The notes beneath the pieces were generated by a model. That model was given only the letters and a program-made list of their open reading frames with translations, was not told the DNA's origin and made no database searches. Made by a program: the position numbers and the translations under genes. DNA of 64,000 nt from Telopea speciosissima (taxonomy: Eukaryota > Streptophyta > Magnoliopsida > Proteales > Proteaceae). Of this stretch, positions 20,509 to 51,229 are shown piece after piece. The stretch's first letter is position 1. Every line of letters begins with the position of its first letter. The stretch covers positions 61,888,970 through 61,952,969 of the forward strand of contig NC_057925.1 in assembly GCF_018873765.1 (NCBI RefSeq). Direction: 5' to 3'.

Positions 20509-21770
20509 TTGGATCTGTTCCAAACTTGATTAGGACAAGTAGCTGAATCCTGTTTTCCACATTGATGAGAGACCCAACTTACCCCACTCCCATGTTCTCC
20601 TCCTTCCATAAAATCTCAATTCCCCCCCTTCCCAAACTTTGTCAACTTCCAATTCCATGCCTGAATGCTAACTCAACCCATATCTTTGTTTTTTTCAACC
20701 CCCCTAGAGAAAGTGATTAGCTAGGGTTTTAGTCCGACCATCATTCCCTGCTACACATTGGTTTTCTTTCCTTAGTTAAATCTTTTTAATTTCTTCCACT
20801 TCTGCTAGCAATAATGGGAGTACTTGTGTTTCTATACCAAATCTCGACTGTTGTGGATGAGTTTGGAAGGTCGACGACAGATAGGAATAGTTGGAGTTGC
20901 AATAAGAACAGTGTATGTTGTTGTTGCCAAAGCCAATAGACATGTGAAAACTTAAACTTCTGGTGGATTGTCAACAAAGAGATTGATGATGAAGCTGATG
21001 ATGACACCAACGACGTTCACAGGGAAGATCCATCGTGGAAGTAATTGTCTGGTCATGAATGCTGCATCAGCTGGAAGCATGGAGGACTTGTCATCAAATG
21101 ATAATCCGAAGTCGACTAAAGATGGTATTGGGATTGTCACGTTTCTTAGAGGAAAGCGGCTTTTTATTACCGGTGCCATTGGCTTTTTAGCAAAAGATAT
21201 TGTATACTTCTACTCTCCTTTTAGAAAAACATAAACTTATAACGATGCTAAAAAGAATAAAAATCACAAACAACAATCACATAGTCGCACACAAAGATTT
21301 ATAGCAAAGAATTTTATTAAAATATTCATATAACCCTATAACCTCTTAATGGATCTTCAGAATCAACATACTTATACAAGACATCAAACCCCAACAACCC
21401 CACCTCTTTTTTATTTTTTATAATAATAAAAATAAAAATTCAAATTGATGATTAATCTGGTTTTCTAGTATTGGATTTTACTTTTCATTTTGACTTTAAA
21501 TTTTCAGTTCTCCTAGAGAGGATTTTAAGGACAATGCCTGATGTGGATAAGATCTTTGTCTTGATTAAGGCACGAAACAAGGAGGACGCAATGAACAGAT
21601 TGAACAATGAAGTATGTTTCTTCTTGAAGACATTGATATATATAATTCTCTTTCTGATCAATTTTATGTTTTTTCCTCTTTAATTTAATGTAATATATTT
21701 TTTGGTAATTATTTTTGGGTTTCGATCATTCGCTTTGTGTAATTAATCATGGGTTTATGACTGGCTTTTT

Positions 21771-24700
21771 AGATGCTGAGGAGTGTTTTTGGCTGCTGAA
21801 ATCTAGACAGAATTATATTGTGTCTGGGAACAGAAATACAAGATTTTTTCATGCAATGGCTAAGCAAAACATTCGGCGTCGTAAAATGGATTCCCTTTAT
21901 TTGGAGAATGGGGATAAAATGACCAATATCAATGATATTGCCTTGCCCTTTGCTGACCATTTTAGTCTGGTCTTTACTACTTCTAATCTTCTGGATGCTA
22001 GCTTTGTTGAATGTCTTTTTTCCCCCTACGTTTCTGTTTCTGTTGCTAATTCCCTGTGTTCTCCCCCTTCTATTGATGAAATTAAGCTTATTGTGTTTTC
22101 ACTTGGGCCTCTCAAAACTCCTGGAATAGATGGATTCCAAGCATGTTTTTTCCAGAAGTTTTGGGAGGAAATCAAGGAACCCCTTTTTAGTTTTATTTGC
22201 AACTGCTTTTCCTCCCTCTCAATCCCTGTTGAAATTAACCATACCCTTCTCTGTCTTATCCCTAAATCCGATTCTGCTTGTACTGTTAGTGACTTCAGGC
22301 TTATCAGTCTCTGCACGGTTATTTACAAAATAATTGCTAAAATTGTTGCCAATAGGCTGAATACCCTCCTCCCCTCCTTAACTCACCTTTTCAAGGTGCT
22401 TTTGTCAAGGGCCAACAAATATCGGACAATATCATCATTTCCCATGAAATTTTTCATTACCTCAATCATAAGAAAGGTAAGGTGAGGTGGGTAGCTATTA
22501 AAATTGATATGTCCAAGGTCTATGACCGAATGGAATGGTCTTTTATCACTGCCATCTTTAAATTCCTTGGTTTTGAGCAGCAGTGGTGTGATTTTCTTTT
22601 GCAACTCCTTTCCTCTACAACCTTTTTCGTAAAGATTGATGGTACCCCTTTTGGACTCTTCAAGGGATCAAGAGGTATCAGGCAAGGATGCCCTTTGAGT
22701 CCTTACTTGTTTATTACTGGGATGGAGGTTCTTTCTCGACTGATCGCTGCATATAGGGATCTCAATCTCTTTAGGGGTATTCAAGTGGCTAGAGGTGCTC
22801 CTGAGATTACCCATCTTCTATTTGCTGACCATATTTTTATATTTTGCAGAGCCATTTCTGAGGATTTGCTTACTATTAAAGCTATTTTGGATCTTTTTCT
22901 GACCTATCGGTCCAGAAAATTAATTTGACTAAGACTGGTATGCATTTTAGCAGCAATGTCTCTAAGGCTGAAAAAGTTCGATTGTGTAAGATTTTGGGTA
23001 TCCTTGAGATGAAGCATGAATCCACTTACTTAGGGACCAAACTTTTTACTCAGAGATCTAAGGTCAAACAATTGACCCCTTTGGTGCACAAAATCAACTC
23101 CAGGCTTTCTTCCTGGAAATCTAACCATCTTTCTTTTGCAGGACGTAGTGTACTCAGAAAGTCAGTATTAAGCTCTCTACCTGCTTATCTTATGAGTTGC
23201 TTCTATTTTCCTAAAATTATCTGTAAGCAAATTGATTCTGTTAGTTATAAATTTTGGTGTGGTGGGAATGATATGAATAGGAAAAATTCACCTGTGTCTT
23301 GGAAAGTTATGAACACCCCCATTCACTTGGGGGGTCTGGGCTTTCGTCCTGCCAGAACCCAAAACCAAGCCCTCCTCCTTAAGCTAGGATGGAGATTGTT
23401 ATCTGAGAATAATTCGGTTTGGACTAAAATTTTGAAAGCTAAGTACTTCCCGCAGACCTCTCTTTTTTACCCTTCTACCAGATTGAAAAAAGGGTCTTGG
23501 TGTTGGAACAGTATCTCTAAGATCTTCAGCCCCCTTCAGTCCTTCTGCTTTAGAAGGATTGGTAATGGCATGGATACTTACTTTTGGACTGATCCTTGGG
23601 TTCCCTCTATTTCGACCTTTACCATTAACCCGAAACTTCTCAAAGGGTTTACCTTGAGAAGGTTAACTTGTTCCTCTCAAATTTTATATGGAAGGAGGAT
23701 CTTGTTAGGGATACAATCCCATCCCTGCTACCCAACATTCTCAACAGTCCCTGCTCTGATTCTCCTGACTCTTGGTGGTGCACTCTAGCTAAGGACGGCT
23801 GCTTTAAAATAAAATTAGCAACATCATTTCTTTTAAGCAATTCTTTAACTGATTTCTCTACTATCGCATGGTGGAAATATTTTTGGAAACTAAAACTTCA
23901 TCCTAAGCTTAAAATTTTCTTCTGGGGTGTATTAAATGTAGGGATTCCAGTTAAGGATTCTATTTTGAAATGGACTCAGATTGACCCCACTTGTGCTCTC
24001 TGTGGCACTTGTAATGAGACGCTCTGGCATATCTTCCTCTCTTGTGACTGGGTTAAGCACATTTGGGTAGCTGGTCTTTTGGGTTTGAAGACTGAATTCA
24101 TATCATGCCCATCTATCAGACATTTCTGCATCTCTGCCTTGCTAGGCCTACAGCTTGACAAGCCCTCTCTCATTTGGTTTTTTTTTCTGTTTTTATTATT
24201 ACTTGCTATTTTATTTGGCAGGTTAGAAACAATTGTGTGTTTAACTCTGTGAAACCTAACCTGGTAAGGTTCTGCGAAGAATAAACCAGTGGTTGTTGGA
24301 CATGAATATTACCCCCCTCCTTTATAAAATGGATGTTTTATCATCTCCTCATTCGGCTAATATTAACCTTGTTCCCATTCCTAGGTTTGATTTACCTATA
24401 TTAGATTTTCTTGTTTTGTTATATGCAGGGTTTGATTCCAGAGACATAGGTAAACCTGGATGGGCCTTTGGTTTTTTGATAGATGGGAAGCTTCTTTTCT
24501 TGACAGCCAGGCGAAGTAAAAACAATCTTATTTTGGAACCAGAGTTGACTGGAATCCTGAACGGGATAGATTTTGCAGCCTTGAGAGGTTTGAAGCTGAA
24601 AGAAGTTTGGTGATCTAATGAGGTGCTACCTGGACTTCTTCCAACTCCATCCCTTTCTCCATGGCCTTTCGAAGTCCTAACTTATTTTTTGAAGATTCAG

Positions 24701-25043
24701 GATCAAACTACTAATGTCTCTTTTAAACAGCTTGCTAATCCTTCCCTTCTTAACTGGTTTAAATGTTTTGTTGCAACTGCCCCCCATACCCCTTATTGTC
24801 TGGACTACTGTACAAATGTTTTCTTCTGATTAGTTTATAAATATTTTTAGGGAAGCAGTTCTCTGTCCGGGAGTGTGGCCTACGCCAGTACTCCCATGTG
24901 TCTATCTCTTTCCTCCTTAAAACAAGGGGGCAGAGGTCTCTTTTCACATGGGGAGGAGAGAGATAGACTCATGGGAGTGCTGGGGTAGGCCACACTCCCG
25001 GACAGAGAACTTTTTCCCATACTTATATTTCCATAAAAAAAAA
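21771..25043 (+). mobile_element. L1-type LINE, 5'-truncated, in intron 2 of the broken reductase
   Basis: The element runs from just after ACTGGCTTTTTA to a short poly-A (about 25034-25043). It encodes ORF2 without the endonuclease: a linker (FWLLKSRQNY), reverse transcriptase (PGIDGFQACFFQKFW; KIDMSKVYDRMEWSF; RQGCPLSPYLF), zf-RVT (CALCGTCNETLWHIFLSCDW) and a C-terminal RNase H-like part near 24430-24800. The catalytic pair at the usual F/YADD reads FADH. The frame shifts near 22385, 22905, 23670 and 24190, and a stop lies at about 24611, so it is dead. The same family supplied the copy at 36909-37785. A MITE sits in its 3' UTR. Confidence 0.88.
24850..25018. mobile_element. MITE with ~65 bp inverted arms nested in the LINE 3' UTR
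   Basis: The left arm (from GGGAAGCAGTTCTCTGTCC) and the inverse of the right arm (GGGAAAAAGTTCTCTGTCC) stay paired for about 65 bases, through GTGTGGCCTAC and CTCCCATG to TCTATCTCT. The whole unit is close to one hairpin. It is younger than the LINE it interrupts, and related by its ends to 5492-5583. Confidence 0.75.
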
Positions 25044-25507
25044 ACTTTTTAAGTTCTTGCAACGAATTCATGGGAAATCATATGTGACATTTATGGTGAG
25101 GAAGCTGATCCCTGTGGTGGGTAATGTCGTCTGTGAGTCTAATAATATTATTGGAATGGAAGAAGAGACAGCTGAGCTTGTCGCAGGAGAAGTGGATGTA
25201 ATCATTAACTTAGCGGCCAATACTACCTTTGATGAAAGGTTTTATTTGAAACTGCTTTAATTTAATCGGTCTTGATGATCCATACATGAATATTATCTTT
25301 CTTGTCATTATAGAACACGTAATTTGAATTATATCCTTAAAAATTTTCAGGTATGATGTTGCTCTGAATATAAGCACAAGAGGACCTTCTCGACTTATGA
25401 GCTTTGCCAAGAGGTGTAAGAAACTCAAACTCTTCCTACAAGTGTCAACTGGTAAGTAAAAAACACTCCAAACTAGCATCTATCCCTTCCCCTCCCCATA
25501 ATCAAGG

Positions 25508-25664
25508 TCAAATAGGGTCATCCTGGCCTAACCCTAAGGGCAGGTCAGGTTGGATTTTTCAGGCCTTCAGTTAGGATTGGGCCAGGCATGGGCCCAGCTA
25601 TAGGGACTCAAGGTTTGGCTGGGGTTTTAAAAAGCCTAACCCAACCCGACCCTGTTGCAGCCCT
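25508..25664. mobile_element. Probable hAT-like MITE with 8 bp duplication
   Basis: AATCAAGG occurs at 25500-25507 and 25665-25672 on either side. The right end inverted reads GGGCTGCAACAGGGTCGGG, a common form for this MITE type; the left end is less similar. A related, less well bounded stretch rich in GGGTTGGGCTTG-like words follows at about 25740-25960. Confidence 0.45.
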
Positions 25665-25964
25665 AATCAAGGTTGTTTCATTCTGACCAATTGGTCATGG
25701 GTTCGAATCTGGAAACAATCTTTTTGTGAAAAATGTCTTTTTTTTATAACATGGGCTTTGTTAGTTCAACAACTCAATGGGCTAAGATATTCAAGGCCTG
25801 ATTGAGCTTGGGAAAACCTTGCCAAGGTCGGATTGGGTTGAGGGTATGCTTGGCCCTGGCAGGGCCGGGTTGGGCTTGAGTATAGGTTAAGGCTCCTAAA
25901 GTTGGACTAGGGTTTAGAGCAAGCCTGGCCCGTTGACAACCTTATTCAGAGTTGCCTTACCAAT

Positions 25965-26281
25965 TCAAACACTTTCCCTCCTTCCAAACATGAATTTTTT
26001 TACCAAAAAAAAAAAAAACATGAATTTTATAATTTGAAAATTTTCACTTCAAAAAATTTGACAAGTAAAATTTTACTGCATATTGAAAAGTGTTCCAATG
26101 TTTGTTTAGTGATGAAAAAAGGCATTAAAAAAAAATTTGAACATATAAAATTTACTGAGGAAAATTTTCCAAGTAAAATATTACACCGAAACAAACAGAA
26201 ATAAAAGATCCAAACTGAATTTTAAGCCTTTACTTATGGGATCATTGCAGTTCGGTGGGTGAAACATAAAAAAGAAGATTT
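25965..26281. other. Spacer; inverted copy of DNA downstream of the second tRNA-Gly
   Basis: Bases 26235-26275 read on the minus strand (TTTCACCCACCGAACTGCAATGATCC-like) match 51322-51350. The duplication that carried the tRNA therefore includes its flanks, in opposite orientation. No coding gene. Confidence 0.5.
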
Positions 26282-26353
26282 TGCGTCTGCCGGGAGTCGA
26301 ACCCGGGTCTATTGCTTGGAAGGCAATTATCCTAACCGTTGGACTACAAACGC
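26282..26353 (-). tRNA. trnG-UCC: tRNA-Gly(UCC), copy 1
   Basis: A 72-base gene including the discriminator A. Acceptor GCGTTTG pairs with CAGACGC; the D arm, a five-pair anticodon stem ATTGC/GCAAT around CTTCCAA (anticodon TCC), and a T arm with GGTTCGA loop all fold. The internal B box GGTTCGACTC is intact. A T6 run follows downstream on the minus strand (Pol III stop). The mature part is identical to the copies at 51230 and 62519. CCA is not encoded, as expected for a nuclear gene. Confidence 0.95.
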
Positions 26354-26399
26354 TTGTTGGAACAATTAGGAAAAGCAGTAAAGTAATCAAAATTAGCTA

Positions 26400-26480
26400 A
26401 AATGTTTTCCTTCAAATGATGTGAGTTCCTTCAAATGATGTGAGCCGTTAATAACCGATTTCCATGAAACGAAACAAAGT
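26400..26480 (-). repeat. Upstream flank of tRNA-Gly copy 1, shared with copy 2
   Basis: On the minus strand this reads TTTCATGGAAATCGGTTATT then AACGGCTCACATCATTTGA, matching 51134-51171 upstream of copy 2. The word CTTCAAATGATGTGAG is doubled here. The same words occur in the 3' flank of the reductase genes. Confidence 0.6.
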
Positions 26481-26736
26481 ATAGGGGAGGGAGAATCTTT
26501 CATGCCATACAAATCACATGGTGAAAATTAATTTCGTCAACAACGGGCCAACATGTCAGAGAGAGCCCATATGGTTAGGCTGTAAAAGCACGTGGAAAAG
26601 CATTTCCACACTGTCTGTGTGGGTTTCTATGTCCCTTCAGATGTTCCAATCAAATGGAGCTCGATCTGATTATGTTAAAAGAAAAAACAAAATATCAGAT
26701 ACTGTAGTTTCATTTATGTATGAACATGTGAAAGAA

Positions 26737-26890
26737 AGAGCGCAAGTCTTGGTTTGTGTGTAGTCATTTCACTACTAGTCAGGCTTAGTTCAAGGATGTC
26801 CACCGACACCTACAACATGACAATATACTATTGATCAAGAAGGACAGTGTGATAATGAAATGCGAACAACTTGTATGATCAAGTTGGTAA
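26737..26890. repeat. Copy of a dispersed segment also at 17283-17520
   Basis: Collinear words with 17283-17520 (GCAAGTCTTGGTT; ACACCTACAACATGACA; TAATGAAATGCGAACAAC). It lacks the local AATAAT expansion of the other copy. Confidence 0.55.
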
Positions 26891-27715
26891 AACTCCTCTG
26901 GATCATAAATTCAATACTGTTTCGATATGGAAAAATAGAATCTCTCTAGTATGATACAATATGATATCGGTTTCTAAAACAAAATCGTTGGTGTGTATCG
27001 ATACCATATTGAATTCCTTATACCGTACTGAATTTGTATTAAATTGAGGTTAAAGTGTATAATCAAAGTATCAAACCCACAAAATCAAAACCCTAAGTTT
27101 TTATTCTTAATTTTGTTTTGAAATATATATTTTTAAAATTTACAATGAAATTATTGCTAACTCTTCTCTTTTTCTACATCTCAATTTACAATTCTTGTAA
27201 TCAGTGACCTTTCTTCTCGGTTGATATTCTTTAAGAAGAGCTTGGTTCAAACTCCTTAATCTATGGTGTCCACAACTCCGAGTAGATATAATAAATTAAT
27301 CAAAATCACATGAGGCAAGTGTTCATGCTCTTTCATCTTCCATACCGAATCGGTACAATATTGATATTAAAAATATAATTTGTATTCAATACGGTACAAT
27401 TTCGTTATCTATTTTCTATCTTTTGTACCGCATCAGATTCCCGATACTGTATCAATTGACATAACATATGGTCTTAACAAGGTTTGCCTTATCTAGTTTT
27501 AAAGGTAAAAGGACAAGGAAATAAAGGATGAGACCGAAATGATCTTCCCCTCTGTTAAGATATTAGAGGAGTCTGGTGTAACTTAGGTTAATGGAATCTC
27601 ATGTAAATATTATGTTTTATAAGGGTTGTATTTTATCATTATTCAATATATAAACACATCATACGTGTAGGGTCATAGTCTATAATAGTCTATAGTGGAG
27701 CCTCTAGTCCAAAGG

Positions 27716-27718
<3 letters not shown>
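26891..27718. other. Intergenic, no gene seen
   Basis: AT-rich, with scattered TATCGATACC- and GGTACAATA-like words typical of decayed MITEs. No bounded element was assigned. Confidence 0.4.

Positions 27719-27772
<54 letters not shown>
27719..27772. repeat. (GA)n microsatellite
   Basis: About 26 uninterrupted GA units. Confidence 0.95.
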
Positions 27773-27777
<5 letters not shown>

Positions 27778-28523
27778 TTTTCAACTAACGCATCACACTT
27801 TGTATGAATTTTCCAAAGATGTCTTGGCATTTAAGAACACTTGGGGCCAACCAACCAACCAAGTAGAGCCCCTCATTGATGGAATTGGGTTTTGGCATGA
27901 GGAAATCTCTTTTAAAGGTGGGGCCCCATTGAGTCCCCATTGAGTTGTTAAATAGAGCACCAACACAGTGGAAGCTGTCACTGCAGAGCATTGGTAGCTC
28001 CGGAGTGTGAATGTGCTTTGCTTTCTTACCTGCTTCTGCTGCAAACTTTGAATGCCAAGTTCATCCAATAATACTATTCAGAATCTAACCTAATTAGATA
28101 TTGTTGGAATTTTATTTGTTTTTAAAATTAAAGATTTAAAATATGTTTTTATTGAGTGTGTTAGAGGGTTGAGTCTTTTCCTAATAGAACTCTTAAATAG
28201 CCTATGGGTACCTATTGAAAGACTTGTTTGAGTGGTTAACAAACAAGTCTTATAGTAAAAGACATGTTTTGGAGCGTATCTTTTGAAGACATCCCTTAGT
28301 GCTGTCTCTTCCTCTCTTATATAGAAAGAAGAGGTCTTACTCATTCTCTAACAATTATTTTTGAAAACATCTTTAGAAGCAATTTTAGTTTATGTTTTCT
28401 TTCCCATCGTAGTTTATCAATGTCGATGAGTTAGTGAATATAGCCTAAGGCCTACAACGTGGAATGCTTTTAGTTGGCATTGATAGAAGGTCTTTCTAGG
28501 GAGATGATTGTTGCAATTCTTAG
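27773..28523. other. Spacer holding a dispersed repeat (28104-28440)
   Basis: No gene seen. 28104-28440 resembles 59975-60310 (shared GATTTAAAATATG, TATTGAAAGAC.TGTTTGA, CTTTTGA.GACA), perhaps fragments of an LTR beginning TGTTGGAATT. The copia element interrupts this neighbourhood at 28529. Confidence 0.4.
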
Positions 28524-28528
28524 ACTAG

Positions 28529-28861
28529 TGTTAGTGAGAATGGTAATCCTTAACTTTATTCATAATGCCATAAGTTGTATTTATACAAGCTATGCAATCT
28601 AATGCAAGAAAGGTAACCCAATATTGGGTGATACAGAAGATGGAAACTCAATATTACATCACTGAAGTGGAAGGTGTAAAATGGAAACCAACTCATAAGG
28701 AAAGAACACAATGTCACCCATCCGATTGTGTTACCAAATCCATATCATATGTGAAGCATAATGACTCTCATCCGATTGTGTTGCCAAGTATAACTAATAT
28801 CCATATCACATGTGATGGAAATCCGAGAAAGGAAAGTGCTCAATGGATCTTTCTCTCAATA
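28529..28861 (-). repeat. 3' LTR of the copia element
   Basis: 333 bp, nearly identical to 33199-33531. In element orientation it starts TATTGAGAG and ends CTAACA beside the target duplication. Confidence 0.9.
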
Positions 28862-31800
28862 CACCCCCTCAAGGTGGAGGTTCGGGTGACCGAATCTTCA
28901 GCTTGTCCCTTATTGTTTCAAATCTGGAATGGGCCAAAGGTTTTTTCAATGTGTTAGCCAGCTGATCATGAGATGAAATGAATTGCACCTGCAGTTGTTT
29001 CTTGGCCACCCGATCTCGAACGAAATGAAAATCGACCTCAACATGTTTAGTTCGGGCGTGAAAGACTGGGTTGGCTGATAGATAGGTTGCCCCAAGATTA
29101 TCACACCATAGGATCGGTGGGCCTTATAGGCTATAGCCCAGCTCGAGTAATAGTGATTCGAGCCATATCAATTCAGTCGATGCATCTGCAAGTGCTTTGT
29201 ATTCGGCCTCAGTAGAAGAGCGTGTCATAGTACGCTACTTCCTAGAGACCCCAGATACAAGATTAGGGCCAAGGAAAATTGCAAATCCCCCAGTCGATTT
29301 TCTATCAGACCCATCTCCAGCCCAATCTGCATCAGTGAAGGCCTGGAGAGAGCTGGAGGGGGATCTCTCAATAAGTAATCCAACTATCAATGTGCTCTTC
29401 AGATACCGAATAATTCTTTTCACCAATTGCCAGTGCTCTTCTAGTGGTGCATGCATAAATTAGCAAGCTCTATTAACTGCAAAGGAAACATCTGGCCGTG
29501 TAAGTGTAACATATTGCAATGCACCCACCACTGAACGATATTGTGTGGGATCGGACAGTGGTGCACCCCCTGAATCCAAAAGTTTGGTAGTGGATGCCAT
29601 TGGAGTTCGAACCGGCTTTCAATTTGCCATCCCTGTCCTTTGTAAGAGGTCTGAAATATACCTTGATTGGGACAAGAGAATGCCCTTAGGATGGCGATTA
29701 ACCTCAATACCTAGGAAGAAATGCAGCTCTCCAAGGTCTTTAATGGAGAACTCATTGGAAAGCTGATGTAGAAGGCTGGAGATCATATGGGAGTCACTAC
29801 CAGTGACAATAATATCATCCACATAAATTAATACATAGCAAATGTGTGCACCCGAACGGCTGATGAATAGAGACGTGTCCGTCTTAGAACCAATAAAGCC
29901 CAAACCAATAAGGAACTCAGAAAGCCGACGAAACCAGGCACGTGGGGCCTGTTTTAACCCATATAGTGATTTGTGGAGTTTACACACATGGTTTGGAAAT
30001 GATGGATCCACAAAACCCTGTGGCTGAGACATATAGATTTCTTCATCTAAGGACCTATGAAGGAACGCATTCTGGACGTCCAATTGCCTCATGGGCCAGC
30101 CCTGAGATACAACAATGGATAGAACACAACGTATTGTCGTGGGCTTGACCACGGGGCTAAAAGTTTCACTGTAATCCAGCCCATGTTGCTGGTGGAACCC
30201 CTTTGCCACGAGACGCGCCTTATAACGCTCAAGTGTACCATCAGCCTTCCTCTTTACTCTGTATACCTATTTGTTTCCAATAAGGTTCATGGAATTGGTG
30301 CGTGGTACAAGAGACCAGGTACCATTGCGAAGTAATGCATTAAATTCTTCGGCCATGGCTGTGCGCCATTCAGGTAGCTTATTGGCTTGTGAGAAGCAAG
30401 TTGGCTCAGTAAGTGCTGTAGTGGATACAAGTGCCCGGGGTTGGTGGTGATGAGATTGAAGCCTCATAGGGTGCAACGGTCGGGTTGGTGGTTCGGGTTG
30501 TGGTGTAGAGTGGGCTTGGGTGTGGCGGGTTGGGTTGAGGTGTATATGTCACTAATGGAGCGGGTTTTTAAAGGTGGAGATGGCGGAGTGTTGGCCATAG
30601 GAGGTGAAGGCTGTGGTGATGGGGAAATAGGGTTATCGTGCACAGGTGATGAAGCGGGTGACAGTATAGGAGTGCCTTGGTTGACCGATTGCACAGGTAG
30701 GGATGGTGGAACAGTTGGTGGTGAAAGAGGTGATGATGCCCAAGGTGATGACGGTGGTGGTGATGAAGGACACACAGTTGTAGTAGGTGTGGTGGAGAAA
30801 GGAAACAATGTTTCATCAAAGCGAACATGTCGCGCAATGATCAGCTTATGAGATTGCAAGTCAAGACATCTATAGTCCATGTGTGAAGGGCGGTAACCAA
30901 GAAAAACACATGCTGCGGACCGGTAATCCATTTTATGGCGATTATATGGCCTTAAGTAGGGATAGCAAAGACATCCAAACACTTTTAGAAAACTGTAATC
31001 TGGCAATTTGTGAAATACCAGTTGGAATGGAGATATCCCAAAAGACACAGAGGATGGCATACGATTGATTAAAAAAATGGCTGTGTCAAAAGCAAAGTGC
31101 CAGTATTTCTGTGGCACAGATCCATGAGTAAGAAGGGAGAGACCCGTTTCAACAATGTGTCGATGGCGTCTCTCAACTGCTCCTTGTTGCTCATGGGTGT
31201 GTGGCGCAGAAAGCCTATGAATAATGCCCAATTTTGAGAAATATGAGGGGAGAGATCGGAATTCGCCGCCCCAATCGGACTGTAGGGCTTTGATTTTCCT
31301 ACTAAACAACCTTTCCACTAGTGCCTGAAATTGAGAAAAAATTACAAATACGTCCAATTTTTGGACTAGTGGATAAAACCAGATGAACTTTGTGTGGTCA
31401 TCCACAAATATCACATAGTACCGATGATGAGAAATAGAGGGAACGGGCGCAGGCCCCCAAACATCCGTATAAATAAGATCAAGAGGAAATAAACTGGTAC
31501 TACTGGTAGTGTATAAAGTTAAACGACTGGACTTGCCAAGTTGACAAGCCTTACACAAAGAACTAAACCAAAAATTAGTAGATGGTAGATTATTTAGTTT
31601 AATCATATTTTTAAGGAGATTTTCATTCGGATGTCCAAGACGATGGTGCCAGATTTCAAAGGAATTGCGAACAACACTGTGAACAGATGGAGAAGGTGAA
31701 GGATGAAGCTCATATAGGCCATCTTTACTAGGTCCGGAAAGCAGTGTTGCCTTGGTTACTTGGTCCTTCACAAGGAAATGAGAAGGGTGAAACTCAAAGA

Positions 31801-33198: not shown

Positions 33199-33531
33199 CG
33201 TTAGTGAGAATGGTAATCCTTAACTTTATTCATAATGCCATAAGTTGTATTTATACAAGCTATGCAATCTAATGCAAGAAAGGTAACCCAATATTGGGTG
33301 ATACAGAAGATGGAAACTCAATATTACATCACTGAAGTGGAAGGTGTAAAATGGAAACCAACTCATAAGGAAAGAACACAATGTCACCCATCCGATTGTG
33401 TTACCAAATCCATATCATATGTGAAGCATAATGACTCTCATCCAATTGTGTTGCCAAGTATAACTAATATCCATATCACATGTGATGGACATCCGAGAAA
33501 GGAAAGTGCTCAATGGATCTTTCTCTCAATA
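33199..33531 (-). repeat. 5' LTR of the copia element
   Basis: 333 bp. Three differences from the 3' LTR. The primer-binding site lies just inside it. Confidence 0.9.
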
Positions 33532-33654
33532 ACTAGAAAGGTTTATGTTGCAGGTAGGAGAAGGAGAAGATGGCCAGGCATGTTCATTTGTTGTTTAGGT
33601 CAAATGACAATTTTTACCCCTATCTTGAAATGTTACAGTGAATAAATGAAGGAA

Positions 33655-33719
33655 TAATATAAAGGGACAATTTTTTAGATCTACTAGATAAGAACGGAAA
33701 TTACAAAATAAGTAAGTTT
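33655..33719. repeat. Left piece of a dispersed repeat interrupted by a LINE tail
   Basis: 33655-33719 (AGATCTACTAGATAAGAA; ACAAAATAAG) plus 34030-34140 (TTTACATC.ACTA; AAAAGATTTACT) together match the uninterrupted stretch 38650-38830. The latter shows what the site looked like before the LINE tail arrived. Confidence 0.5.
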
Positions 33720-34031
33720 CAAATTCATAGAGATTTGGTGTCTTATCTCTAACGTGGGTTATGTTACCCACCACTAGAAGTAAAACCTGTAGTGGATGAT
33801 ATTCTCCATTTGTCGGCCTATTTTACTTATTGGTCGTTTACATATGTTCCAAGGGAGGTTAATAGTGTAGTTGACTCCTTGGCGAGGAAGGTGTTGTTGG
33901 TAACGTGCACAACAGTCTGGCCAAATTTCGATCCATGCATCCAGTAGTTATGTTCAACTTCATTCATGTGTAATTCACGCTGATCTTTATAAAGTTTTTT
34001 AATATTTCTATCCCCAAAAAAAAATAAATAA
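33720..34031 (+). mobile_element. LINE 3' fragment (RNase H end and tail)
   Basis: Encodes VPREVNSVVDSLARK, the end of a plant LINE RNase H-like domain, followed by a tail shared with 16655-16794 and a poly-A (34017-34031). Confidence 0.65.
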
Positions 34032-34189
34032 ATGGTTTACATCCACTACTTTCTATTTTGAAAAGATTTACTCAATCCCCAAAGTTAAGTTAATACTCAT
34101 GCCACACAAGAATAAAATAAAAATAAACTTTCAAAATTGTTCCAAAAATTTGTTTTGAACTTTTAAATCGCAATGGAAAAAATAGGAGG

Positions 34190-34560
34190 TTTACAATGGT
34201 GTATAAGATATGGATGGAGAGAAATGCACGGGTCTTTAAACAGAAGCGCAACCCACCAAATGTGGTGCTTCATGCTACATTATCAGTCTGTCGTGCTCGG
34301 TTCTTAGATATGGAGAAATGTGTACCAGACACAGCTCCTAATGGAACCTTCTTTAAACGGTGGACCATTAGTGTGGCTCTTGTAAACTTGAGAGCAACAT
34401 CTCATACTTGGCCTTACCTGCCCCCGTTCGTGATGAGGAGGGGGGGGGGGGCTATAGGGCTCTGGGATAAGACGCAACTGGGCACGTGCTTTTCAAAGTA
34501 GTTGCTGGTGTAAGGGTTAGTTGCATTCTACGCCTTGAGCTCATGGCCATCAAGTCTAGC
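34190..34560 (+). mobile_element. LINE ORF2 fragment
   Basis: VYKIWMERNARVFKQK and the downstream LRLELMAIKSSKR-like stretch are typical of the region between zf-RVT and RNase H in plant LINEs. It contains a G10 run (34441-34450). No start, stop or ends remain. Confidence 0.6.
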
Positions 34561-34910
34561 AAACGGTAAAGTAATGATCATGATGGTGTTAATGGTGGGT
34601 GGCAGTGGTGGTGGTGGTAGTATTGGGTATCTACATTATAAAAGAAAATGATGATTTGGGGAAGATGAGGATATTTTGGTCTTTTCAAATTTTAGCAAAT
34701 AGGTCAGGGTAATTAGGTCTTTTCAAATTTTAAAAAAGATAGAAGAAAAGGTAGTTTGGTCATTTTTTAGCATTTAACGCCTAGTGTGGACTTAAATGAC
34801 TTTAGGTGGAAAAGGAAAAGTAGAGATGGTACATGGAATTTTCAGGAGGTGCGTGTCAATTTGTCATAACCTTAAGGGGGCATGAGAAATATTGGGTGCA
34901 TTTTAGGGGT
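34561..34910. other. Intergenic, no gene seen
   Basis: A GTGGTGGTGG microsatellite-like patch near 34600, then AT-rich DNA. No gene. Confidence 0.4.
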
Positions 34911-36403
34911 ATGCGTATCGGATTCGGCTCTTATCCAGCCGTGGCGGGAGTTGCATGGTGCAGCACCCCCCTAAGATTTTGACACATGGCACCAAGTAAA
35001 TCCAACGCTCTTAAATCTCTGGTCTGATTAAATGCATTCTTTATTTCATTTAACCTCTCTATTGACGACCCGACCCGAATCTCACACTTTCAATTAAAAA
35101 AAACAAAAACAAAACCAGTCGTCCTTCCTCCTTCTCTTTCCCTCTTTTGCTCGATCTGCCCTAACTCTCAAAACCTTCAACCTAACCTCACCATATTTCG
35201 GTTCTTGGCGCAGGAGATCCGGCGACGGCGAGAGGTGGCGAAGACAAGAGCAGGTACACCCATCCTTCTCTTCCCCTAACCTTCTTTGCGATATGGGCAC
35301 TTGAATTGCCTCACAGTGCCCACAAGAGCTACACTTCCCCTCACATGTCGGGGGCCTCGAACCAATAAGACTTCTCACTACTGCGTTCTCTTGGCTTCCC
35401 ATCTGTACACTAACCAACCAACCTTACCCATTAACACCACCAATTCAAGATAACAACCATCTTCTCCCCAAATTTTCAAAGGAGAAAGAAAACTGACCTG
35501 GGCTTGGCTGACCTCAACTAGTTTAACATAAGCTCTCCTGTTCAAGTTTTGATTGATTAATATCATCATGGCAGTTTTCAGCTGCGCTAGGGTTCTTCTT
35601 TGTTCTTTTGATTGCCGCCCAGATCCCCATTTCACCGGCAACCTTCGCCCTGAGATACCCTCATTATCTTCTAGCAAGGCCCGTTCGCTTCCTTTCCACG
35701 GAGGATCATCGCCTTCCTATCCCTTCTTTGGCCCGGGTTTGTCTTCTCTTATCCTCAAGTTCCCTCCCAATTTTGTCCGTCAGCTCAGCAACAAAGCTCG
35801 GAGGAATTGCAGCAACATCGGCGTGGCCCAAGTCGTGGCGGCTGCTTGGTCGAACAATCCTTCTTCTGTTGTACCTGCCTCTGCTACATCACAACCACCA
35901 CTTCCTCTGCTTCTCCCAATTTCTAGACCGAGCATGAAAATCGGTCAATAATGGCATCTATTGCAGGTGGAGGAATTCTCTGTTCTTGCTTCTTCCACCT
36001 TCAGCCAAGCGAAAACGATGAAGAAAATATGGTTTGTATTTGGGATATTGGGGATTTAACCTTAAGGGTATAATAGGAAGTTCACCCTATGGTAAGGGTA
36101 ATTTTGCCATTATAAAAGAGTTAACAGCCACTTAACTGCACAGACCTAACGGAGTGGACTAAGTTGAAATAAAAATATAAAATAAGGGTAGTCTGTGCCA
36201 TTTTGACAAAATTTAGGGTGTACTTGCCATTTCGAATAGTTATAGGGGGTGTCCGTGAAATTTGCCCAATAAAGAATGCATTTAATCAGAGCAGAGATTT
36301 AAGAGCGTTGGATTTACTTGGTGCCATGTGTCAAAATCTTAGGGGGGTGCTGCACCATGCAGCTCCCGCCACGGCTGGATACGAGCTGAATCCATGCGTA
36401 TCC
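34911..36403. mobile_element. Pack-MULE-like element with ~135 bp terminal inverted repeats
   Basis: The left arm 34911-35045 and the inverse of the right arm 36268-36403 align almost throughout (shared TATCCAGCCGTGGCGGGAG, TGCATGGTGCAGCACCCCCC, GACACATGGCACCAAGTAAA, TCCAACGCTCTTAAATCTCT). Only a few mismatches lie in the inner 120 bases. The long arms and 1.5 kb size fit a non-autonomous Mutator-like element. Between the arms the DNA is more GC-rich than its surroundings and looks gene-derived, with a possible exon at about 35216-35250 bounded by AG and GT. No transposase is present. A 9 bp target duplication could not be confirmed because the outermost bases of the arms differ. Confidence 0.75.
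35568..35951 (+). CDS. Gene-like open frame inside the Pack-MULE-like element, possibly a captured transit-peptide exon
   Basis: 127 residues, starting MAVFSCARVLL. The product is rich in Ser, Pro and Arg with few acidic residues, the composition of a plastid transit peptide, and continues as ARRNCSNIGVAQVVAAAWSN. I do not recognise the parent gene. The nearby sequence 35966-36040 looks like a second coding piece after an AG (TTGCAG then GTGGAGG). It may be an acquired 5' exon of a host plastid-protein gene. No claim of expression; it could equally be non-functional. Confidence 0.4.
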   Translation: MAVFSCARVLLCSFDCRPDPHFTGNLRPEIPSLSSSKARSLPFHGGSSPSYPFFGPGLSSLILKFPPNFVRQLSNKARRNCSNIGVAQVVAAAWSNNPSSVVPASATSQPPLPLLLPISRPSMKIGQ

Positions 36404-36439
36404 TTTTCTTTCACTTAAAAGATAAATTGACCTATCATA

Positions 36440-36905
36440 TGATGGTTAGGAGTCCGGATCATGTCCTTGTATAAGGACGGCTCTACTGCTGTCCTTGTCC
36501 ACTCATTAGTGACCATGTGGAAAGTACTACACCGGAATCGAAAACCTGTTCTAAGTACTAACAACACCTTTTTACCTATTGTAGTTCGGATGGCGATGTT
36601 GGAGTTGATCTCAAATGATTATACTCATGTGATGATTGAGACAGATAATCTGAATCTGGTTACGTATGTTACAAGTGGTGGTGGTTCGGTGGAACTTCTC
36701 CCTTGCACATTCGGGCGAATGTTGAAGATATCATACATTTATCTTCTTTCTTTGTATCTTGTAGCTTTACTTGTATTCCACGGAAGATTAACAACGTGGA
36801 TGACTCCTTGGCTAGGAGGGTACTGTCGTTAACATGCATGACTGATTGGCCCATTTCCACTCCATGGTTGCGTGAGATGTGTTCATTCTCCCTGCCATGA
36901 GCTTG
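36440..36905 (+). mobile_element. LINE RNase H-like fragment
   Basis: Encodes THVMIETDNLNLVTYVTSGG and, after a frame change near 36700, CIPRKINNVDDSLARRVL: the two halves of a plant LINE RNase H-like domain. It abuts the next LINE head-to-head at their 3' ends. Confidence 0.65.
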
Positions 36906-36908
36906 CAT

Positions 36909-37785
36909 GTTTTTTTTTTTTTTTTTTTTGATGCTAAAAAACTAAAACACTACTTAACCATCATTTGTACATACACTCCAGCAAATATTCCTAGCGATAT
37001 TCTTGACTAAAGTTAGACATAACTTATCCCCATCCATAGTGAACTTTACATTATGGGTTCGATTTGATATATAGAGAAAGTCTTTGAACAAAGACCACGG
37101 CCAAGGGCATTTGGTAGGAGATGGAAGAGTATCGGTAATCAGTTGATGAACAACCCACACTTCTTTAATCTGCAACCCAATGCGTGCCACTCGATCACAC
37201 CCTTTGCGGATTGCAAAAAGAACAGCTACTAAGTCATCATTGTTAGAAAGAGTTCCTGCATCAAAATATTTGAACGTGCCATCTACCAAAAAAACGTAGG
37301 ACCATCCTGCTGAATTCATTCCTGTGTTAGAGTATCCTGCAAAAATCAGAACAGGGACATTAAACACAGGTATATGGAACAGTACCGAAGACACGAACAA
37401 AGCATCATCTCTTTTGGTTACAGGCCGGGAAGAAGTGGCAGGGGGCCAAATGTGAAGATCTGCAATCCAACCATTGATCCTGTCCATAACCCAAATGGGA
37501 TTGGGCGGTTCCGATCCCACCACTGCACTATTCGGAACTGACCAGATGAAGTAACAGGTAATGAAAAAAACACTAAAAAACCATAACATATGTTTATCAT
37601 CCTTAAAAGAACGAAAAAAGAGGAGACAAACAGAATTTAGATCCGCCAGATCCATGGAATCTAGTCTTAAGCCGAGAGGACCTCCCGCCCAAATGTACTT
37701 GACCCAATCACAAGATAAGAACAAGTGCCTTGAGGATTCAACACCAGTCCACAAAGAACACAGGAAAAAGATTTTTAATAAATTC
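36909..37785 (-). mobile_element. 5'-truncated L1-type LINE, same family as 21771-25043
   Basis: Minus strand. It opens with LFLSCDWVKYIWAGGPLGL (zf-RVT end), then an RNase H-like domain (VLIFAGYSNTGMNSAGWSYV; QIKEVWVVHQLI), and ends in a poly-A read as a T run at 36909-36930. The frame is open for about 277 codons, far less decayed than the 21.8 kb copy. It lacks the endonuclease and reverse transcriptase. Confidence 0.8.
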
Positions 37786-37789
37786 ATAC

Positions 37790-38645
37790 TTGTTTACCAA
37801 AAAAAGATTTTTTTTTTTAATTCAACTTGTGGGTCCCACGATCATTATCATCTTCTTCCTTCCTTCATTCTTCTTCTTAGAAGGCAACGACGGACATCAC
37901 CACCCCATCTCTTCTTCTTCTTCCTCCCAACTCCTAACTTCACACCTTTTGCAAGCTCACCCCACCCCTTGTTCTTCATCCCTTGGAACCCCGTCCCACT
38001 CCTATCCTCTACAACCCAGCGTACCGCCCACCCCTGTTCTTCATCCCAATCTTCAAATAGGTTCGTAGGTGATCTGAGTTTCTTAAAATTTCCTTAAAAT
38101 TTGAAGGGCAGCCCAGTATTCCAAACTTTTGAGGTCATAAAAAAACTAAAAAGAACCACCTACATTCAAAGTGGGGTATAAATCCAGGCCCTCCACTAAA
38201 ACCCCCCTGTCCCTCATAAAAGAATCCCAACTGAAGAAAAGAGAGAGGGGGGGGGGGGGGGGCGTTGGACTGAAATATGGAAAACGGTTTAAAGAGCTCA
38301 CTTTTCTAACTAGTTTGCAATTCTCGCAGGAGGAGGAGGATTCAGATGGGAAATCACTGTTGTTTCTTACGTTTTCCAATTAAAAAAAATTTCAATCGTT
38401 TTTCTAAATCCCCTCTGTTTTGGCTTCTCTAGTTTAAAGGAGAAGATGAGTTTACATCAGCTAAAAGCGGCAAGAATTTCAAGGACTTTTAAGGGATGAG
38501 CTTTCTCCCCCTCTTCTCCATCATCGTCTCCTGTCCCTCACTCTCTATTTTGGCATTTCGGGTTCTTCCTTCGTTGCCTTTTGCGAAGACGAAGAAGAAT
38601 AATGAACGAAGAAGAAAATAATGATGACGACAGACCCACCTGGAA
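37790..38645. other. Pyrimidine-rich spacer, no gene assigned
   Basis: CTTCTTC-rich DNA with a G run at 38247-38262. Its composition resembles gene 5' leaders, but no family was recognised in any frame. Confidence 0.35.
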
Positions 38646-38649
38646 TAAA

Positions 38650-38830
38650 AATAAATAAGGGAAAATTGCCCAGATCTACTTAGATAAGAAAATTAATCAC
38701 AAAATAAGAAGGCTTAAAAATTATTTTACATCTACTAGTTTCAATTTTAAAAAGATTTACTTAAACGCTGGAGTTAGTTACTACTCCTGCATTCCAAGAA
38801 AAAACATGATGGAATTTCAAGCCTAAGATT
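38650..38830. repeat. Uninterrupted copy of a dispersed repeat
   Basis: Contiguous match to the two pieces that flank the LINE tail at 33720-34031. Confidence 0.5.
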
Positions 38831-40130
38831 GTGCCAAGAACGGCGGTGAATGATTATGATGATGTTGGCAATTTAGCACTATGACCTGCCGAGAACGGCT
38901 GTGATCGATTATACATCATAATCGGTCTCCTTAGAAGAAAGGAAAAGAAAGGAGCTGAGATGCATTCTCGAAGCTCTCTTCAATGGGTTGAGGCATTCGG
39001 AATACAGAAGCCACGATTTCGCTGGGATTTGAAGGAGACATTGAGAAACTCGGTCAAATCCGTTTACAAAGAGGTTTCTATTTGATGTGAGGTTAGGAGA
39101 TTTATTTCCTGATTCATGTCGGAATCACACAAGGCGTGGCAGTCCATTGATTTTGGGTGTCAAGACTCAAAAGAACTGAATAACACATTGTGCAACCACC
39201 AAATAGTGAAGACCGAACAAGCCGAAACGTGGCTTCACACCTTGTTGAGGAAGGATTGGATTGCTTGGTGGAGATTTAATGCTTGATGACATCACCATAA
39301 TAGTATTTGAAGAGAGGCAAAAAAACGTGGCCTCCGACCTTGTGGAGGAAGGATTAGATTTTCAAGAAATGCATGGTGGAGATTTAATACATGGTGATAT
39401 CACCATAATAGTGTTTGAAAAGAACTTTTCTCATGATCGTTGATATGTTTGGGAGCGCCATTACTCGTGCTAAGACAATAGTAATGTAGACCGATCAACT
39501 TATGAGCAGGTGGCAAGTGAAATGGCTGAATTTGCAAAAAGAGGTCATTTTTCTCTGGACCGATCAACTTGCATTGTTTACACCCTATTTCGATCATACA
39601 GACCGAACTTAAGGTTGTAAAGGCATATCCACAATCCCACTCGAACTCTTGTGGTCTCGTTCAAATGGGATTGTGAGGGGCATTGTTACACCCCATTTCT
39701 GCTTATAAAAATTATCTCGGTTATGGATGCCTTAAGGCCATGCATTGCACGTTTTCATCAAATAGGTTCCCTTTTTTTGAGTGATAAAGTGGAAAGGTGG
39801 GACCCACCATGACTATAGATGGTGGGAGGTTGCAAACCCCACATGGCCACATGGCGCAGGAGATTAGCACTTTGGAATGAAAGTGGCCTCAATACAAGGA
39901 GGTGGAAGTGTTGGTTACGGGAGTTACCAAGTAAATGTCTTCTACATATAAGATAAAAGCCAAGCAAAAAGAGGACACCACAATCAACAACACAACACTC
40001 TATTATCTTTATTCCTTTTTTTATCTTTTAAGATGTAGTGTTTCATCTTTACCTGTAATTTTTGCTGGAGTTGGCTTCCAGCCACCAATGCCTCATTGGC
40101 TTGTGTTTCAAGGGGCATTCATGTAGGTCT

Positions 40131-40388
40131 TGCTTGGAGAATAACTCCAGTAACCATGTCTTCTGGCCTGTGTTTCAGAAGACAACCATCATCATCGAGT
40201 TGCGAACTTCATCAGTCTGTGGCTGGCAGAGTTGTGGAAGCTTCATCAAGACCGTTTTTGGGAGATGCTTGGAGAACAACTCCAGCAATCTTCTCTTTTG
40301 GCCCGTGTTTCAGAAGGCAACCATTAACATCAAGTTGCAAGCTCCATCAATCCATGGCTGGCAGAGTCGTGAAGCTTCATCAAATCCA
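40131..40388. repeat. Two tandem copies of a ~137 bp unit inside the LTR
   Basis: 40131-40253 and 40268-40388 share GCTTGGAGAA.AACTCCAG, GTGTTTCAGAAG.CAACCAT and TGGCTGGCAGAGT in the same order. Confidence 0.7.
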
Positions 40389-40435
40389 TTTCTGTGAGAT
40401 TATGCGATTTGGTTATAGAGTAGTTCTACTGTAAA

Positions 40436-40850
40436 CAGGCCGTTTCATCTTAGAACAGGCCGTTAAAGTAGATGTACTGTAAACGTCAGGTTGTAAATCT
40501 CATCAAAGTCGGATTTTGCAAGTTGTAATGACTCCAATCAGATATTGACTGCAAGTAAGCAATTTGATCTTCAATCTTCTTCCTTGCTTTGTTCATCGTG
40601 ATTTGCTTTTACTCAAAAGACCTTAAAGCTACTCAGCCATGGAAGGATCCCCTTCTCGTTCTGGTTAGAAGTCAGAACATGCCGTTTCTGGCCTCTTAGA
40701 ATATGCCGTTTCGCCAGTTAGAACAGGCCATTTTGGCCTGGCTGGAAGTTAGAACATGCCATTTCGTCCTGGCTGAGCAGGCCATTTCATCTTAGAACAG
40801 GCCATTTCGTCCTGGTTGAAAGTTGGGACAGGCCGTTTTCAGTTCCATTT
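40436..40850. repeat. Irregular tandem array of GAACAGGCCRTTTC words
   Basis: At least eight copies of GGCCATTTC, GGCCGTTTC or close variants, spaced about 20-70 bases apart, often preceded by GAACA. This array is inside the putative LTR. Confidence 0.6.
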
Positions 40851-40939
40851 GGGCCTGCGTCAAAGGCTCTGGCACGCCCGCATTACCTCCACCACATGCG
40901 TTGTGCCCCTGTGTGTAGGTGTTGGATTTTCCACCAGCA

Positions 40940-41176
40940 GAAAGACAAGGTAGAATCTTGGAAAAGGCTTTCAGCATAGGAGACTGCATTGCAAGGGAGA
41001 AGACAATCATCACTTCCAAACCCCTTCTTCCTACATCTCTCCCTGTCTTGGATGTTGAAGGTGAAGTAAAGTTAGCCTTTCACTCGAAACAGACTTTCCA
41101 AGACCACCAAGTGGTACCAAGGATGAAAGAATTGGGTTTAGAGAGGTAATTAAGGCTTTTCAAACAAGTCTGGATC

Positions 41177-41260
<84 letters not shown>

Positions 41261-42835
41261 TTCACGTATGGTTTCATGATGGCTTTCATAAATGTCACTC
41301 CATTAAGAAATGATCAAAAAGACATTTCTGTAGTTGGTTAACCTTTTGGGATTGTCGTGTGGTTTATTGATTACAATTGTTTTTAATAGGGCTCGCATGC
41401 ATGGGTGGCAAGATACTTATGTATTCACAAAGGCCATGGGTGAAATGCTGATAAACGATCAAAGAGGAGAAATACCGGTTGTCGTTATCAGGCCGAGCGT
41501 CATTGAAAGCACCTATAGTGAGCCATTCCCTAGATGGATGCAAGGAAATAGGTGTCTGTTCTCAATCCATGCTTGCATGTCTCTAATTAAATTGAAGAAA
41601 CTAGTAAGCCTAATTGACTAACGACAATGTCTAAATGACATCCCTATAGGTGCATCTAGAACTTGGCACCTTCTTTTAATTGTCCATTGTCTTATTTTCA
41701 AAAGTTCTTTACATGAGGGGGGGGTGTAAAAGGGTTTTCAAAATTGATTGAAAATAAGCTATCATTGTCATAAGGTGTCACTGCCATGCAAATTTTCGAA
41801 TATACATGTGAAATAACACTATTACCCTCATTGAAAAAATTACTAAAGAGACAAAAGCAAGGTTACAAATTTTTTGAAACTTTCAGGAGTGTCAATATGA
41901 AAATCCTTTGACTGTATATGTATCTAATATGGGACAATTCATTGTAGTATATATATTAGGAATGACAATATTGTGTCTTGTGTTTTTTTTGGTAAAATGA
42001 CAATATTGTGTCATTTCTGAATCAACCTTACCCTGCTTTGCAATTGTATTGTTATATATTAATATCTAAGCTCTTAAGTACTACAAACTAGCTTGTTGTC
42101 TCAAAATCATAATAATTTATTTTCTATTTATCAAGTTTTGTTGTTATGGAACCCTCAGGATGATGGATCCAATAGTGTTCTATTATGGAAAAGGCCAGCT
42201 CACAGGTTTTCTTGCAGATCCCAATGGAGTCCTTGATGTAGTAAGTTGTATTTGGTTAATTGGCTCATCATCTTTGTATGACACTAGTTAGGCATAATAG
42301 GCAAGTAAACTAATTATCTTTTTGGACATGACTAATGTGTGTAGGTCCCTGCAGACATGGTTGTAAATGCAACCTTGGCAGCCATGACAAAGCATGGTGC
42401 AACAGTGAAAGCAGAGACGAAAATTTACTACGTTGCTTCATTTGTAGGTAACCCACTAATCATCCAAGACTTGGTAAGGTTTTTCTATGAACATTTCAGT
42501 TCCTTCCCTTACATGGACTCAAAGGGAAGACCAATTCATGTCCCAAGAATGAAGCTCTAGACCTTCACTTCCATGGATGATTTCTCCTCATATATTTGGA
42601 GAGATACCATCCAAAGAAGCCAGCAGCTAGTGGCTGCAGCTGCTTCCAATGAAAAACTATCTCGTAAACTCGAAATTGCAAGTAAGAAATCAGTGGAGCA
42701 AGTAAAGTACTTGGCTAACATATATGAACCATACACTTTCTATGGAGGAAGGTACGTGAGAAGCTAGCTATAGCTAAGTTAAACCTATTCAAACCTTTTC
42801 TTGTGATTCCAATGACTAGGGAATAACATGAAATC

Positions 42836-42873
<38 letters not shown>

Positions 42874-43039
42874 CAGGTTTGATAATACCAACACCGAAAA
42901 GCTGATGGAGGAGTTGTCTGAAGAAGAGAAGAAGAGCTTTGGATTTGATGTAAGGAGCATAGATTGGCAGCATTATATCTCCAAAATTCATATTCCAGGC
43001 CTAAGGAAGCATGTCATGAAGGGGAGGGGGATGCCTTGA
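40940..43039 (+). pseudogene. MS2-type fatty acyl reductase pseudogene, exons 5-9
   Basis: 3' half of the torn gene. Exon 5 from 40940 to 41145 (its first dozen or so bases and acceptor are replaced), exon 6 41390-41551 with the YVFTK catalytic motif, exon 7 42159-42240, exon 8 42345-42751, exon 9 42877-43039. Exons 6-9 have exactly the lengths of the intact gene. Exon 8 carries a 6-base insertion that brings in TAG at 42558-42560, offset by a 6-base loss earlier in the same exon. Intron 6 is 607 bases against 95 in the intact copy. The last two exons and 3' flank are almost identical to 48304-48998, implying recent duplication or gene conversion. Confidence 0.88.
41179..41256. repeat. Compound (CT)n(AT)n microsatellite in intron 5
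   Basis: CT repeats to about 41211, then AT repeats to 41256. The intact paralogue has an (AT)n run at the matching place (47437-47474). Confidence 0.95.
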
Positions 43040-43130
43040 TATTAATTATTTCATTAATTAAGACATAAATAATTTGTTTCATGCATGGAAATCGATCTGT
43101 TGTAATACTCTTTTTTCATATTTTCTTAAT

Positions 43131-43291
43131 AAAGAACGTACTCAGTGCACGAGATTTTAGTCACTATGGCATCTAGGGAGGGTCATAATTAATGTACGTA
43201 GCTTTACCACTGCTTTCGCAAAGAGACTGTTTCCAAACTAGAACCCATAACCTCTTGGCCACAATGGATCAACGTTACCGTTGCACCAAGG
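43131..43291 (-). mobile_element. Au-like SINE in the 3' flank of the broken reductase
   Basis: Minus strand. It starts CCTTGGTGCAACGGTAA (tRNA-like A box), has a worn B box (GGTTCTAG), then TTTGCGAAAGCAGTGGTAAA, TATGACCCTCCC and CTCGTGCACTGAGTA, the hallmark order of the angiosperm Au SINE. It begins under 100 bases from the stop codon and is shared with 49091-49250. Confidence 0.8.
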
Positions 43292-44047: not shown

Positions 44048-44216
44048 AAAAAGTACATTGTTTAGTCTCGTGGAACTTGCATGTAGGCACAATTAGATTG
44101 AGCTTCTCTCTCTTCATGAAATTAAAAAATCTCATCCATGTTAATGCCTCTGCATGCATTCTTATTGGTCCCCACACTGGTGGAGGACTACACGACTAGG
44201 CAGCACTCTCTTGCCC
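44048..44216. mobile_element. MITE of the CTTGGTCGT family (copy beside broken reductase)
   Basis: Decayed ends AAAAAGTACATTGTTTAGTC and inverse CACGACTAGGCAGCACTC..TTGCCC. The interior AAAAAATCTCATCCATGTTA matches 49971-50133 and, less closely, 15419-15607. Sharing the site with 49971 means it inserted before the duplication. Confidence 0.55.
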
Positions 44217-47433: not shown

Positions 47434-47477
<44 letters not shown>

Positions 47478-48998: not shown

Positions 48999-49090
48999 TA
49001 TTAATTATTTCATTAATTAAGACATAAATAATTTGTTTCATGCATGGAAATCGATCTTTTGTAATACTCTTTTTTCATATTTTCTTAATA

Positions 49091-50722: not shown

Positions 50723-50759
50723 TAGGACATGGCAGCGTGCGATAGAGAATCTGTTTCCT

Positions 50760-51180: not shown

Positions 51181-51229
51181 TTTTGACAAAGTTTCATTAA
51201 TTTACTTCCCCTGTTTACAAGATCATCAA

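Follow-up and report, generated by a model that had tools for sequence, protein, structure and literature searches.

Plastid fatty acyl reductases (FARs) such as MS2/FAR2 of Arabidopsis, DPW of rice and Ms25 of maize form fatty alcohols in the tapetum and act in pollen-wall synthesis. For enzymes of this kind, a paper on plant FARs gives sporopollenin synthesis as the main role and defines two plant FAR motifs, GXXGXX(G/A) and YXXXK (PMC9783961). How a tandem gene cluster can be rearranged is illustrated by maize P1-wr, where the published account describes tandem copies, gene conversion, nested long terminal repeat (LTR) retrotransposons that separated the end of one gene by 68 kb and, at another place in the cluster, a deletion followed by rejoining (PMC2686159). 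Here we describe a 64,000-nucleotide stretch of Telopea speciosissima (assembly GCF_018873765.1, contig NC_057925.1, forward-strand positions 61,888,970 to 61,952,969), hereafter the window, in which positions are counted from the first letter. It holds an intact FAR gene, B2, and upstream of it a second, apparently decayed copy, B1, whose exons 1–4 and 5–9 lie on either side of 15.5 kb of mostly mobile DNA and are best read as the two halves of one gene.

B2 resembles MS2/FAR2, DPW and Ms25 in its NAD_binding_4 and Sterile domains, in both motifs, in an N-terminal extension and in its match to the protein structure 7eoz. It differs from them in having a broken neighbour, B1, and its enzyme function is predicted. 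With P1-wr the two copies share the processes at work (tandem copies, conversion, retrotransposon insertions and deletion); the first insertion at P1-wr lay in the 3' untranslated region, whereas the break in B1 is at intron 4/exon 5 (PMC2686159). A literature search at the level of titles found no paper on this locus, which says little. The locus is a routine example, such splitting and decay being common among duplicated plant genes; it offers a clear worked case of a tandem duplicate decaying in a transposon-rich plant genome and leaves general understanding unchanged.

Intact and broken FAR copies

The exon borders of B2 are all GT/AG, and its coding sequence is exactly 1,845 bases, corresponding to 614 residues and a stop codon. 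The predicted protein carries the Pfam domains NAD_binding_4 (2.1e-75) and Sterile (FAR_C; 2.4e-18), and both plant FAR motifs are present in the translation, as GATGFLA and YVFTK. Residues 107–613 match PDB entry 7eoz (E 7.6e-210), with 106 residues of N-terminal extension ahead of the match, where a candidate plastid transit peptide would lie. The chain is named in the record only as 'Fatty acyl-CoA reductase'; we take it to be rice DPW. Judged by its predicted protein, B2 is a plant fatty acyl reductase of the MS2/FAR2/DPW kind, the clade resting on the 7eoz match and on this assumed identity.

B1 consists of two same-strand pieces in order, exons 1–4 at 20814-25451 and exons 5–9 at 40940-43039 (Table 1). 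In a self-comparison of the window, 20569-25475 and 40940-44390 are colinear, on the same strand, with 45257-50301, and a tblastn search that used the B2 protein as query recovers parts of all nine exons, a single time each in B1 (exon 1 as two pieces) and in B2. An earlier, sequence-only reading had proposed one gene in two non-overlapping halves 15.5 kb apart, with no exon repeated, and a 144-base intron at the join in the intact paralogue. The tblastn search and the colinear alignment agree with it on the halves, and intron 4 of B2 (47035-47178) has the length that it gave. Over aligned bases, exons 1 to 9 of B1 are respectively 82, 95, 93, 92, 92, 86, 98, 94 and 100% identical to B2; small forced-alignment effects at exon ends enter the figures for exons 5 and 6. 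In a separate comparison of exon 6, 2 of the 21 differences are end gaps.

The lesions counted in B1 are an in-frame stop in exon 1 at 20937-20939, after 41 codons; a lost intron-1 donor (AT in B1, GT in B2); two lost acceptors, exon 3 being without its AG and the original intron-4 acceptor being gone together with the AYVNG codons; and an in-frame TAG in exon 8, which arises from a 6-base insertion that B2 is without. On these lesions, which would block the ancestral protein, B1 is a decayed pseudogene, and we infer that it has no full-length product. Exon 3 adjoins a second insertion, 3.3 kb long, that parts it from exon 2 and consists of a sense-strand long interspersed nuclear element (LINE) and, after it, a small element with inverted arms. 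The search for a site duplication of this LINE covered lengths of 8 bases or more and found none.

Table 1. Positions of the FAR copies and associated features in the window (LTR, long terminal repeat; LINE, long interspersed nuclear element; MITE, miniature inverted-repeat transposable element; TIR, terminal inverted repeat)
Feature	Position	Strand	Basis or remark
B1 exon 1 (decayed)	20814..21196	+	ATG kept; in-frame stop; donor AT
B1 exon 2	21508..21611	+	99/104 bases identical to B2
LINE in B1 intron 2	21776..24852 (ends approximate)	+	RVT_1 6e-19, zf-RVT 1.2e-13
Small inverted-repeat (MITE-like) element	24857..25011	.	two 60-base arms, 93.3% complementary
B1 exon 3	25032..25238	+	no AG acceptor in front
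B1 exon 4	25351..25451	+	AG acceptor and GT donor (25452) intact
Stretch replacing B2 47063-47192	25476..40939	.	15,464 bases; alignment to B2
Inverted copy of 51119-51346: old FAR 3' relic with tRNA-Gly(TCC) at 26282-26353	26239..26482	-	
Young copia-type LTR retrotransposon	28529..33531	-	LTRs 330/332 identical; site duplication ACTAG
Long-TIR DNA element	34920..36393	.	126-base TIRs, 97% complementary; site duplication ATGCGTATC
LINE-like fragment	36957..37793	-	72% identical over 109 columns to intron-2 LINE
LTR-like remnant	39684..40939	+	TG...CA ends; purine-rich stretch ahead; stops exactly at exon-5 break
B1 exon 5, first 14 nt gone	40940..41145	+	in frame, open after junction CAG
B1 exon 6	41390..41551	+	YVFTK retained
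B1 exon 7	42159..42240	+	tblastn, alignment to B2
B1 exon 8	42345..42751	+	6-base insertion with in-frame TAG at 42558-42560
Gene-conversion-like tract	42479..43135	+	common to B2 48444-49094
B1 exon 9	42877..43039	+	163/163 identical to B2 exon 9
B2, intact nine-exon plastid-type fatty acyl reductase, 614 aa	45487..48998	+	exon borders, translation, domains

The break between exons 4 and 5

The break at 25475/40940 maps between B2 47062 and 47193. On its left side homology extends about 24 bases beyond the end of exon 4, to 25475; on its right side homology resumes at 40940, the equivalent of B2 47193, 14 bases within exon 5. B1 thus lacks 130 bases of B2, of which 116 nt belong to intron 4 and 14 nt to the start of exon 5. 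Because the acceptor and 14 bases of exon 5 were removed, the break is not a pure intron insertion. The junction carries a CAG at 40938-40940, after which exon 5 is in frame and open (STERQGRI...).

Partly supported overall, the sequence-only reading had the stop at about 25475 and the resumption at about 40940 right, but homology does not stop and resume only once: it is also broken at 21775-25031 by the LINE and the inverted-repeat element, within introns 1 and 5, and in intron 6 at about 41555-42078. Its single split gene stands as the best reading, but not as a clean insertion into an intron. It had missed the pseudogene decay, the cut in exon 5, the 3.3-kb insertion between exons 2 and 3, and the conversion-like tract described below.

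Two candidate relics of the missing 130 bases were set aside. The best plus-strand match, 21 bases at 27574-27595, scored 32 against a maximum of 30 in 60 plain shuffles; dinucleotide shuffles equalled or beat it in 5 of 400 cases with a 70-base query and in 0 of 400 with a 30-base query that was picked post hoc, and it is not relied on. A minus-strand match with a score of 36 is poly-A only.

Divergence and probable exchange between the copies

The two halves of B1 have diverged from B2 to a similar extent at synonymous sites. Differences amount to 27.7 of 155.3 sites in exons 1–4, 11 of 87.3 in exons 2–4 and 22.5 of 126.5 in exons 5–8 ahead of the tract, the last value being slightly raised by a forced alignment end at exon 6 (Fisher p 1.0 for exons 1–4 and 0.44 for exons 2–4, each against exons 5–8). 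For codons outside the tract, the nonsynonymous and synonymous divergences of the B1–B2 pair are Ka 0.087 and Ks 0.203; since the ratio is a pair value and is below 1, it cannot on its own demonstrate that constraint was lost. Among 43 residues that differ between the copies and are aligned to 7eoz, 19 are B2-like, 7 B1-like and 17 neither. When three B2-like rows (396-398) belonging to the forced alignment end at exon 6 are dropped, 16, 7 and 17 remain, a weak excess for B2 (p 0.093).

A tract that runs from within exon 8 through intron 8 and exon 9 into the beginning of the 3' flank stands out, with 8 differences in 651 positions against 143 in 1585 aligned positions on both sides (98.8% identity against about 91%). 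The Fisher p of 6.6e-14 is optimistic, as the tract was picked as the best-scoring segment, and the counts take B2 positions only, so that bases present in B1 alone, including the 6-base insertion, are outside both the 8 and the 143. The identity over exons 8–9 points to recent gene conversion between B1 and B2, which would link an intact, presumed pollen-wall gene with its broken copy. As the 6-base insertion with the TAG lies inside the tract and is absent from B2, either it arose in B1 at a later time than the exchange, or the exchange itself was patchy.

Probable origin of the split copy

We give a probability of roughly 0.86 to the reading in which a FAR gene was duplicated, B1 is a single copy that lost its function and was split by transposons, and the tract was homogenized by conversion after the duplication. 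A FAR gene of the MS2/FAR2/DPW clade would have been tandemly duplicated, the downstream B2 staying intact while the upstream B1 lost function and transposable elements built up in it. The LINE and the small inverted-repeat element would have landed next to exon 3, while the junction of intron 4 and exon 5 would have received at least one LTR element, presumably the one that hit exon 5; a deletion at this junction would have taken the 130 bases. More insertions, including the very recent copia element, would have widened the gap to 15.5 kb, and the tract over exons 8–9 would have been made uniform by B1–B2 gene conversion well after the duplication. The anatomy, the lesions, the boundaries of two elements with site duplications and the conversion-like tract are seen directly; the order of events is reconstructed.

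A single split copy is the best reading because the halves are complementary, ordered and on the same strand, have breaks at most 130 bases apart and show like synonymous divergence. Under a uniform model, the chance that two unrelated breakpoints in an interval of 3,513 bases are no more than 130 bases apart is 7.3%, so their closeness alone is not overwhelming. Several observations weigh on the other side. No site duplication was found around the whole insert (at least 7 bases, or 5-6 bases within about 15 of the breaks), the missing 130 bases, sought in the gap, were not clearly found there, and FAR scraps of other copies lie near B1 and B2. Intron divergence is uneven, at 14/255 in introns 2–3 and 19/183 in introns 6–7 (p 0.067), and adding the intron-1 tail (38/202) gives 52/457 against 19/183 (p 0.78). 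The pairwise Ka/Ks below 1 is compatible with some past constraint on B1.

Some of these points would equally suit two independently truncated FAR copies, one without exons 5–9 and the other without exons 1–4, standing in order by chance. The absence of a site duplication flanking the insert fits such an origin, as does the intron difference until the intron-1 tail is counted. The locus also clearly once had more FAR copies, as is shown by scraps at 50759-50814 (intron 1/exon 2), 51078-51105 (exon 9) and 62424-62497 (exon 8), together with the 3'-flank and tRNA piece in the gap. We nevertheless hold this origin to be unlikely, as the halves are complementary with merely 130 bases absent between them. 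The scraps, each below 80 bases, are not long enough to supply the half that either B1 piece lacks, and besides them tblastn and blastn with B2 found no further FAR exons in the window, where the sequence-only reading had said that missing exons nearby would speak for two truncated copies. Nor is the inverted relic the tail of the 5' half; its compacted 3' flank is, by eye, like 51119-51230 and unlike B1 or B2.

For B1 as a functional gene whose intron 4 is 15.5 kb long, one could cite the intact exon-4 donor, the CAG acceptor that the end of the insert supplies with exon 5 continuing in frame minus AYVNG, the exon 9 identical to that of B2 with exons 8–9 kept alike, and the pairwise Ka/Ks below 1. 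The stop in exon 1, the lost intron-1 donor, the missing exon-3 acceptor and the TAG in exon 8 make this very improbable, and on these lesions outside the gap an intact gene with a giant intron was rejected; in addition, 7eoz sides weakly with B2, and the Ka/Ks, which belongs to the pair, may reflect B2. An assembly artefact is hardly credible: a single assembly is the source, but the window is without any N, and for two elements in the gap both the matching ends and the site duplications are present. For annotation, a single split B1 means joining two partial gene models and labelling the result as one pseudogene.

It is conceivable, if quite unlikely, that the split B1 still exchanges sequence with B2, its exons 8–9 having been overwritten by B2 or copied into it after the break, and that a partial B1 transcript, spliced with the help of the new exon-5 acceptor, serves as a regulatory RNA, or B1 as a conversion donor. 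Were this true, B1 would act in either role for B2 as a pollen-fertility gene.

Elements within the insert

The sequence-only reading had listed a copia element, LINEs, an element with long terminal inverted repeats (TIRs), an LTR remnant and a tRNA gene in the gap. All were recovered, the LINEs as LINE-like pieces, except that the LTR remnant is suggested by its ends only. The copia element has gag, an integrase region and RVT_2 in copia order, which places it in that class; the Pfam hit to rve (25.5 bits) is below its cut-off of 32.6, and gag_pre-integrs and SH3 are above theirs. With 2 differences in 332 LTR positions, the element is by this measure recent. The site duplication of the long-TIR element is 9 bases, and we take the element to be Mutator-like on the strength of this length and the long TIRs.

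The insert has LINE-like pieces at about 33.8-34.5, 36.4-36.9 and 36.96-37.79 kb. At the DNA level, part of 36957-37793 resembles other LINE-like stretches, as does 33837-33937 (similar to 36766-36866) and 33895-34005 (similar to 16660-16770); a Pfam scan of three frames from these pieces gave no match, and their label comes partly from a reading of translations. For the LTR-like remnant, no partner LTR was found within the window and no site duplication of at least 5 bases with the left break; it is a candidate 3' LTR.

The inverted piece at 26239-26482 is identical to 51119-51346 over the tRNA (72/72); in the remaining part, 117 of 154 aligned bases agree. A 63-base motif, presumably a piece of a short interspersed nuclear element, occurs in the 3' flank of B1 and of B2 (43214-43276 and 49173-49235) and, inverted, in the insert (25669-25731). 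Another repeat pair, 28109-28356 and 59973-60233, is 70% identical and possibly consists of LTR remnants.

Other duplications in the window

At 62424-62497, two short exon 8 matches keep the expected order, and the closer of them precedes a tRNA-Gly gene by 21 bases; this is probably the relic of a further FAR copy. The window has three tRNA-Gly(TCC) genes (26282-26353, 51230-51301 and 62519-62590), which all score the same against Rfam, each near a FAR or 3'-flank scrap. A second duplicated pair, 6702-12218 and 52155-58839, is 70-89% identical in pieces and, combined with the FAR scraps, suggests that a putative PAP2–FAR–tRNA block was duplicated at an earlier time. One member of the pair contains, at 10355-10804 on the minus strand, a weak match to PAP2 (lipid phosphate phosphatase) of 26.5 bits against a cut-off of 27.2.

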